Shown here: positions 7,684-10,138 of the stretch, piece by piece | Numbering within the stretch: position 1 is the stretch's first letter | Layout of the letters: every line of letters starts with the position of its first letter | Assembly (NCBI GenBank): GCA_027623325.1 | Contig: JAQBXY010000018.1 | Coordinates: forward strand, 1-64,000 | Length of the DNA: 64,000 nucleotides | Origin: Gemmatimonadota bacterium | GTDB taxonomy: Bacteria > Gemmatimonadota > Gemmatimonadetes > Longimicrobiales > Gaopeijiaceae | Direction of reading: 5' to 3' | Notes under the pieces: model-generated | What the model saw: only the letters and a program-made list of their open reading frames with translations | Told to the model about the DNA's origin: nothing | Databases searched by the model: none | Program-made: the position numbers and the translations under genes

Positions 7684-7712
7684 TTGACCTCGATCTCGGG
7701 TCGCGCCATCCT
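7684..7712 (+). promoter_or_regulatory. Possible promoter for the thrS leader
   Basis: A TTGACC hexamer (7684-7689) is followed after 17 bases by CATCCT (7707-7712), a weak match to a sigma-70 promoter about 33 bases upstream of the leader peptide start. The minus-10 match is poor (3 of 6), so this is only a candidate. Confidence 0.3.
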
Positions 7713-7744
7713 TTCCTACGATCACTCAGCAGCGAGACGACTCC

Positions 7745-7819
7745 GTGCGAGCCTCCACGACGACCGCGACGACTACGAACGGCCCGACTACGGGTCGGGG
7801 GGCTGCGTGCGTCGGGTAG
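7745..7819 (+). CDS. Threonine-rich leader peptide upstream of thrS
   Basis: A 24-codon frame starting GTG 7745 and ending TAG 7817 encodes a peptide with eight threonines. They come as ACG ACG ACC, ACG ACT ACG and ACT ACG codon runs (MRASTTTATTTNGPTTG, then RGAACVG). It lies just upstream of a hairpin/terminator pair that precedes threonyl-tRNA synthetase. By analogy with classical leader-peptide attenuators, ribosome stalling at Thr codons when charged tRNA-Thr is scarce would switch the downstream RNA fold. The start has only a weak ribosome-binding site (GCGAGACGACTCC before GTG). Expression is inferred from composition and context. Confidence 0.7.
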   Translation: MRASTTTATTTNGPTTGRGAACVG

Positions 7820-7881
7820 ACTAGATATAGACCGGACGTCAGGCGCGGCCCCCGAGACACGGGCGCCGCGCTTCTTTTTTT
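7783..7881 (+). terminator. Transcription attenuator controlling thrS
   Basis: Three mutually exclusive RNA pairings can be drawn. Hairpin 1:2 pairs CCCGAC (7783-7788) with GTCGGG (7794-7799) and overlaps the last Thr codons of the leader peptide. The terminator pairs GCGCGGC (7843-7849) with GCCGCGC (7865-7871), is extended by CCC/GGG inside, and is followed by TTCTTTTTTT (7872-7881). The antiterminator pairs GGGGGCTGCG (7798-7807) with CGCGGCCCCC (7844-7853), 10 base pairs with one G-U, and would remove the 5-prime arm of the terminator. Together with the leader peptide this is a textbook attenuator layout. Confidence 0.75.
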
Positions 7882-9854: not shown

Positions 9855-9965
9855 AGCGTCGGTGGGGCCAGAGCCGTTGACCTGCCACGGTTCTTGGAAC
9901 ATCTTTCGCCTCCACTCAACTAGGTGGACCGACAATTTGGAAGCGGACCGCACTGACCGGCGGTC

Positions 9966-10054
9966 TCACCTTCAGGGCTCTTCGGAGCTGGCGTGAGGGT
10001 CGCACGGGTCGATGCTCGGAGCGTTAGCTCCGTTCGTCTATATCCCCGGTCGCG
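9966..10054 (+). promoter_or_regulatory. Structured 5-prime leader of the infC operon
   Basis: Between thrS and infC the transcript can form at least two hairpins. One is TCAC...CAG.GCTC-TTCG-GAGC.TG...GTGA (9966-9996), with a stable TTCG loop. The other is CGGAGC-GTTA-GCTCCG (10017-10032), perfect over six pairs. A strong terminator follows directly. In other bacteria infC-rpmI-rplT is autoregulated by L20 binding to a leader, or through IF3; this leader may do the same job, but no rRNA-like L20 site was demonstrated. Confidence 0.5.
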
Positions 10055-10081
10055 GCCCGAGACTCATCTCGGGCTTTTTTT
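10055..10081 (+). terminator. Intrinsic terminator/attenuator before infC
   Basis: GCCCGAGA (10055-10062) pairs perfectly with TCTCGGGC (10067-10074) around a CTCA loop and is followed by seven T residues. It can end thrS transcription, or act as an attenuator inside the infC leader, since it lies 57 bases before the likely infC start. Confidence 0.85.
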
Positions 10082-10138
10082 GTGTACTGGATGAGAACCG
10101 ACTGGTTCTCACAAATGACTCCATCGGAGGTAGAGGAC

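Follow-up and report, generated by a model that had tools for sequence, protein, structure and literature searches.

How thrS is controlled in a Gemmatimonadota genome is the question raised by a short, threonine-rich reading frame that lies directly upstream of the gene in the window (the whole 64-kb stretch of DNA analysed here). Elsewhere, thrS is known to be under T-box control in Firmicutes and under ThrRS autoregulation in E. coli. An earlier, sequence-only reading of this DNA had proposed a ribosome-stalling attenuator for the gene, and that proposal is supported by the conservation, covariation, promoter and footprint folding described below. We consider it very likely that the region between the promoter and thrS acts as a classical ribosome-mediated transcription attenuator that would sense the charging of Thr-tRNA. 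The parts of the element are listed in Table 1.

Table 1. Computed features of the thrS attenuator region in the window
Feature	Start	End	Strand	Details
Promoter, sigma-70-like	7684	7712	+	TTGACC 7684–7689, 17-nt spacer, CATCCT 7707–7712
Leader ORF	7745	7819	+	GTG at 7745, 24 codons, then TAG 7817–7819
Hairpin 1	7780	7797	+	arms 7780–7786/7791–7797, 7 bp, loop 7787–7790
Antiterminator	7798	7853	+	7798–7808/7843–7853 plus inner helix 7809–7813/7835–7839
Intrinsic terminator	7841	7881	+	stem 7841–7849/7865–7873 and 7851–7854/7860–7863, T-tract to 7881
thrS, threonine--tRNA ligase, regulated gene	7932	9854	+	TIGR00418 657.5 bits, cut-off 383.65

The leader reading frame is present as the sequence-only reading had described it. 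Its translation is MRASTTTATTTNGPTTGRGAACVG, and 8 of the 24 residues are threonine, encoded at 7757, 7760, 7763, 7769, 7772, 7775, 7787 and 7790. Given the local composition, the probability that a single ORF would contain at least 8 Thr among 24 residues is 3e-5, and a scan of both strands identified this as the sole instance of a Thr leader plus terminator in the window. The frame begins with GTG, and no clear Shine–Dalgarno sequence was found upstream of this start. The sequence-only reading would fall if transcription began downstream of 7819; the promoter in Table 1, recognised by its consensus and its conservation, instead places the predicted start at ∼7719–7721, so that the transcript would begin ∼25 nt upstream of the leader. 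Counterparts of this promoter are found upstream of 21 of the 22 thrS leaders described below (shuffled rate 0.4%); a strict sigma-70 scan did not pick it up. Downstream of thrS, reading frames resembling infC, rplT and pheST follow in the same direction. Between thrS and infC, positions 9930–10082 of the window contain a conserved structured leader with a terminator at 10054–10080 that can be aligned across several genera. The sole Rfam match to this second leader is weak and sub-threshold (SorY, 34 versus 111 bits), and it is perhaps an L20/infC attenuator.

The computed structures of the leader RNA agree in large part with those first drawn for it. The 10-bp antiterminator proposed at 7798–7807/7844–7853 is exact and is extended by one further pair (7808/7843) and by the inner helix; folded as 7798–7856, it has an energy of −37.6 kcal/mol (z −5.7). 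The GC-rich terminator and T-tract claimed to lie between the leader and the gene are likewise borne out (−25 kcal/mol, z −4.5). Residues 7843–7853 are common to both structures, which are therefore mutually exclusive, and this is the only exclusive pair in the element. Hairpin 1 (−10.9 kcal/mol, z −3.5) is where the two descriptions part. The 6-bp hairpin 7783–7788/7794–7799 of the sequence-only reading can be drawn, but the conserved and covarying register is the 7-bp hairpin of Table 1, whose loop falls on the last two Thr codons of the leader. Because the last base of hairpin 1 in this register (7797) lies directly next to the first base of the antiterminator (7798), the two abut, and the competition that had been claimed between them is unsupported. 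Hairpin 1 is thus not a 1:2 protector hairpin excluding the antiterminator, a part that is accessory rather than defining for an attenuator; a putative pairing of region 2 with the 5′ end of the leader can be drawn for the window RNA. Since hairpin 1 adjoins the antiterminator, it would be the position of the ribosome, stalled on Thr codons or arrived at the stop, that picks antiterminator or terminator. In our model, the protector job is done by the footprint of the ribosome at the stop codon. Hairpin 1 is a probable pause or spacer hairpin, which would either pause the polymerase or stack on the antiterminator.

The consequences of ribosome position were computed with a footprint model, which folds the RNA that remains accessible when a ribosome is placed at each codon in turn. 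With the ribosome at Thr codons 5–11 of the window leader, the 5′ arm of the terminator is held upstream with a probability of 0.99–1.0 before the 3′ arm has been made. A ribosome that has reached the stop codon sits over region 2, and the terminator then forms with a probability of 1.0. In these computations, the antiterminator thus becomes available when the ribosome stalls at the control codons, and it excludes the terminator. By the last Thr codon (16), the ribosome footprint already lies over part of region 2, and the first six Thr codons should therefore do most of the sensing. Across the 22 loci, the energy of the antiterminator is −23 to −40 kcal/mol versus −0.5 to −10 kcal/mol for the RNA that is free when the ribosome is at the stop codon. 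At equilibrium, the complete RNA of many relatives favours the terminator even when the ribosome is stalled, which means that the switch must be kinetic in these cases and depend on the order of synthesis. Two folds of the window RNA with different 5′ ends disagree on whether termination occurs in the absence of translation.

From this model we infer a response to charging in two directions. When Thr-tRNA is well charged, a ribosome translating the leader would reach the stop codon and cover the 5′ strand of the antiterminator, the terminator would form, and transcription would end near 7880. Under a shortage of Thr-tRNA, the ribosome would stall at the first six Thr codons (7757–7777) and the antiterminator would form first; by holding the 5′ arm of the terminator, it would allow the polymerase to read into thrS. 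These steps give simple reporter and RNA-seq predictions.

For comparison, regions upstream of thrS were gathered across the order to which the window's genome belongs, 129 in all, and scanned uniformly for a Thr-rich short ORF plus a terminator. Of 23 loci found, one (G098) was spurious and was dropped; the remaining 22 of 129 represent three families and about 12 genera. The distance from the leader stop to the T-tract is 50–63 nt in all 22, and the homologous leaders in the 21 other genomes are 19–30 aa in length with 4–10 Thr. The enrichment is specific to Thr: with every amino acid counted, leaders with at least six Thr occur at 19 loci versus 0.05 expected, compared with 6 loci versus 1.0 expected for Arg and 0–2 loci for the remainder. 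In an 11-genome alignment, 97% of the pairs of hairpin 1 and the terminator are kept (93.5% of cells for hairpin 1 and 99% for the terminator), with 14 two-sided changes versus 4.8 in shuffles. None of the 500 shuffles had as many two-sided changes, four of the seven hairpin 1 pairs have such changes, and on four of five measures the covariation of the two stems exceeds that of every shuffle. No covariation was found for the outer antiterminator helix in the alignment of relatives, nor can this helix show any, because it is almost invariant. The antiterminator nevertheless beats shuffles of its own 5′ strand, with a negative z in 19 of 22 genomes (mean z −2.5). Conserved Thr codons and covarying stems were what the sequence-only reading had offered as its test; both the codons and the stems are kept not only in close relatives but also outside the genus. 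Conservation of the same arrangement in 21 related genomes indicates that the attenuator is real. Strong matches to a covariance model of the element are confined to the order; matches in another family of the class were rejected as ordinary terminators without leaders.

Control of thrS by other means must be weighed against this interpretation. The element might be T-box-like or bind a protein, as in ThrRS autoregulation, with the Thr codons arising as a by-product of RNA structure; such control of thrS is established in Bacillus and E. coli. We regard this as improbable here. The Thr codons are mostly upstream of hairpin 1 and are a mixture of ACG, ACC and ACT, Thr persists while the flanking leader residues diverge, and a reading frame with a stop at a fixed distance is retained. 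An Rfam search of the element gave no match to a T-box (RF00230) or to any other plausible family even at E ≤ 10, and Thr_leader (RF00506) was likewise below its gathering threshold and unmatched at E ≤ 10; RF00230 was also not matched at thrS loci of Firmicutes and other controls, so that the Rfam negative has no thrS positive control. A real Thr leader could also act mainly on the translation or stability of thrS mRNA, by reinitiation or coupling, with the terminator serving as a weak or processing hairpin. A general role of leader peptides in ribosome reinitiation has been proposed (PMC4833913), but at this locus the leader stop is ∼110 nt upstream of the thrS start, the GC-rich stem and T-tract are kept in the thrS leaders scored, and the antiterminator and terminator are mutually exclusive, making such a role quite unlikely as the main one. 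Finally, ACG and ACC codons are common in GC-rich sequence, but the chance occurrence of a Thr-rich frame next to the terminator of the upstream gene is refuted to near certainty by conservation, because only 4 of 2520 dinucleotide shuffles were positive (0.16%, none with at least six Thr) versus 17% of thrS loci, and the geometry, promoter and covariation are all conserved.

The attenuator that we favour is found in various states among close relatives. Within the window's genus, it is intact in G103 (10 Thr), weakened in G097 and G100 (6 and 5 Thr, respectively, with antiterminator mismatches), reduced in G095, G096 and G098 to a terminator with a ruined leader, and absent from G106; the close relatives G090–G094 do not have the element either. 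Three thrS loci of this genus (L035, L037 and L038) retain both promoter and terminator before thrS, with the frame of the Thr leader ruined. Such natural variants in one genus, intact, partly decayed and lost, could be used to study the origin and decay of a switch. Mapping the attenuator onto a ThrS tree takes 13 changes, and the element precedes the genes of two deep ThrS lineages (A and B). The G035 leader is 73–76% identical to those of G104, G088 and G089 in lineage A, whereas its ThrS is 85–88% identical to lineage B and only 62–66% identical to A. This discordance between attenuator and thrS histories (L051/L109 against L003, L005, L007 and L034) implies that leader and coding sequence recombined or that one thrS took the place of another behind an existing leader.

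The window's genome, which is rated 100% complete, has no match to homoserine dehydrogenase, HisG or prephenate dehydratase, with controls matched in 13–14 of 14. Homoserine dehydrogenase is found in 0 of 14 genomes of this genus; a thrC-like protein is present despite the missing enzyme. These absences suggest several amino acid auxotrophies, and the missing homoserine dehydrogenase implies that threonine may be taken up. A link between the attenuator and loss of homoserine dehydrogenase was considered across the order and rejected, as the enzyme is present in 7 of 22 genomes with the attenuator versus 39 of 97 without it (Fisher p 0.63) and independent pairs are not significant.

The same covariance model also matched other candidate leader attenuators in sister genomes, which adds support to the reading proposed for thrS. 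His-run leaders (e.g. MRNLATLRRHHHHHHRVPAGPVVEGVCA) with terminators precede hisG at L116, L119, L134, L155 and L156 in related Gemmatimonadota. Thr-rich leaders with terminators are found before an aspartokinase gene (thrA type) or, with Ile codons, before the homoserine kinase gene thrB (L121, L125, L127 and L122), and Phe/Tyr-rich leaders before the genes for DAHP synthase (aroF) and prephenate dehydratase (pheA) (L124, L128 and L126). We lean slightly towards the view that this order of Gemmatimonadota has a so far unrecorded set of leader attenuators (thrS, hisG, aspartokinase/homoserine dehydrogenase, thrB, aroF and pheA). On this view, the gene for the charging enzyme would be the only one to have kept a Thr version in the window's genus, in which no homoserine dehydrogenase is seen, and its attenuator would signal how much scavenged, as opposed to self-made, threonine is available.

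The mechanism proposed here is textbook leader-peptide attenuation as in E. coli. The claim that a stalling attenuator of thrS in Gemmatimonadota is a new case stands within the open-access literature, where no earlier leader-peptide attenuator was found for this target or in this phylum. With it, attenuation would reach a phylum that has received little study and a gene otherwise controlled by T-boxes or ThrRS. Those two systems also tune thrS to the supply of Thr-tRNA, but do so via uncharged tRNA or ThrRS binding and without a leader peptide. A close parallel in design is thrL, the thr operon leader of E. coli (Rfam Thr_leader, RF00506), which likewise combines a Thr-rich leader peptide with an antiterminator/terminator switch and whose peptide, like the leader here, ends in a TTGNGAG-like motif. 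However, thrL controls biosynthesis (thrABC) and senses Thr and Ile, whereas the element here would act on the synthetase gene and shows enrichment of Thr only. Among the aminoacyl-tRNA synthetase operons of E. coli, pheM-pheST is known to be attenuated through a leader peptide; it uses Phe codons and resembles the thrS element in mechanism and not in sequence. Outside the Proteobacteria, classical leader attenuators have been predicted before the synthetase genes trpS2 and leuS of Streptomyces, in a study that did not find a conserved structure for threonine (PMC1262725); these share the position before a synthetase gene, but for other amino acids and in another phylum. A His-leader before hisS/hisZ in bacilli (PMC2965389) similarly places such a leader on a synthetase-family gene outside both Proteobacteria and Actinobacteria, but there the amino acid is His and the phylum is Firmicutes, whereas in the window the leader is read for Thr and the gene is thrS.
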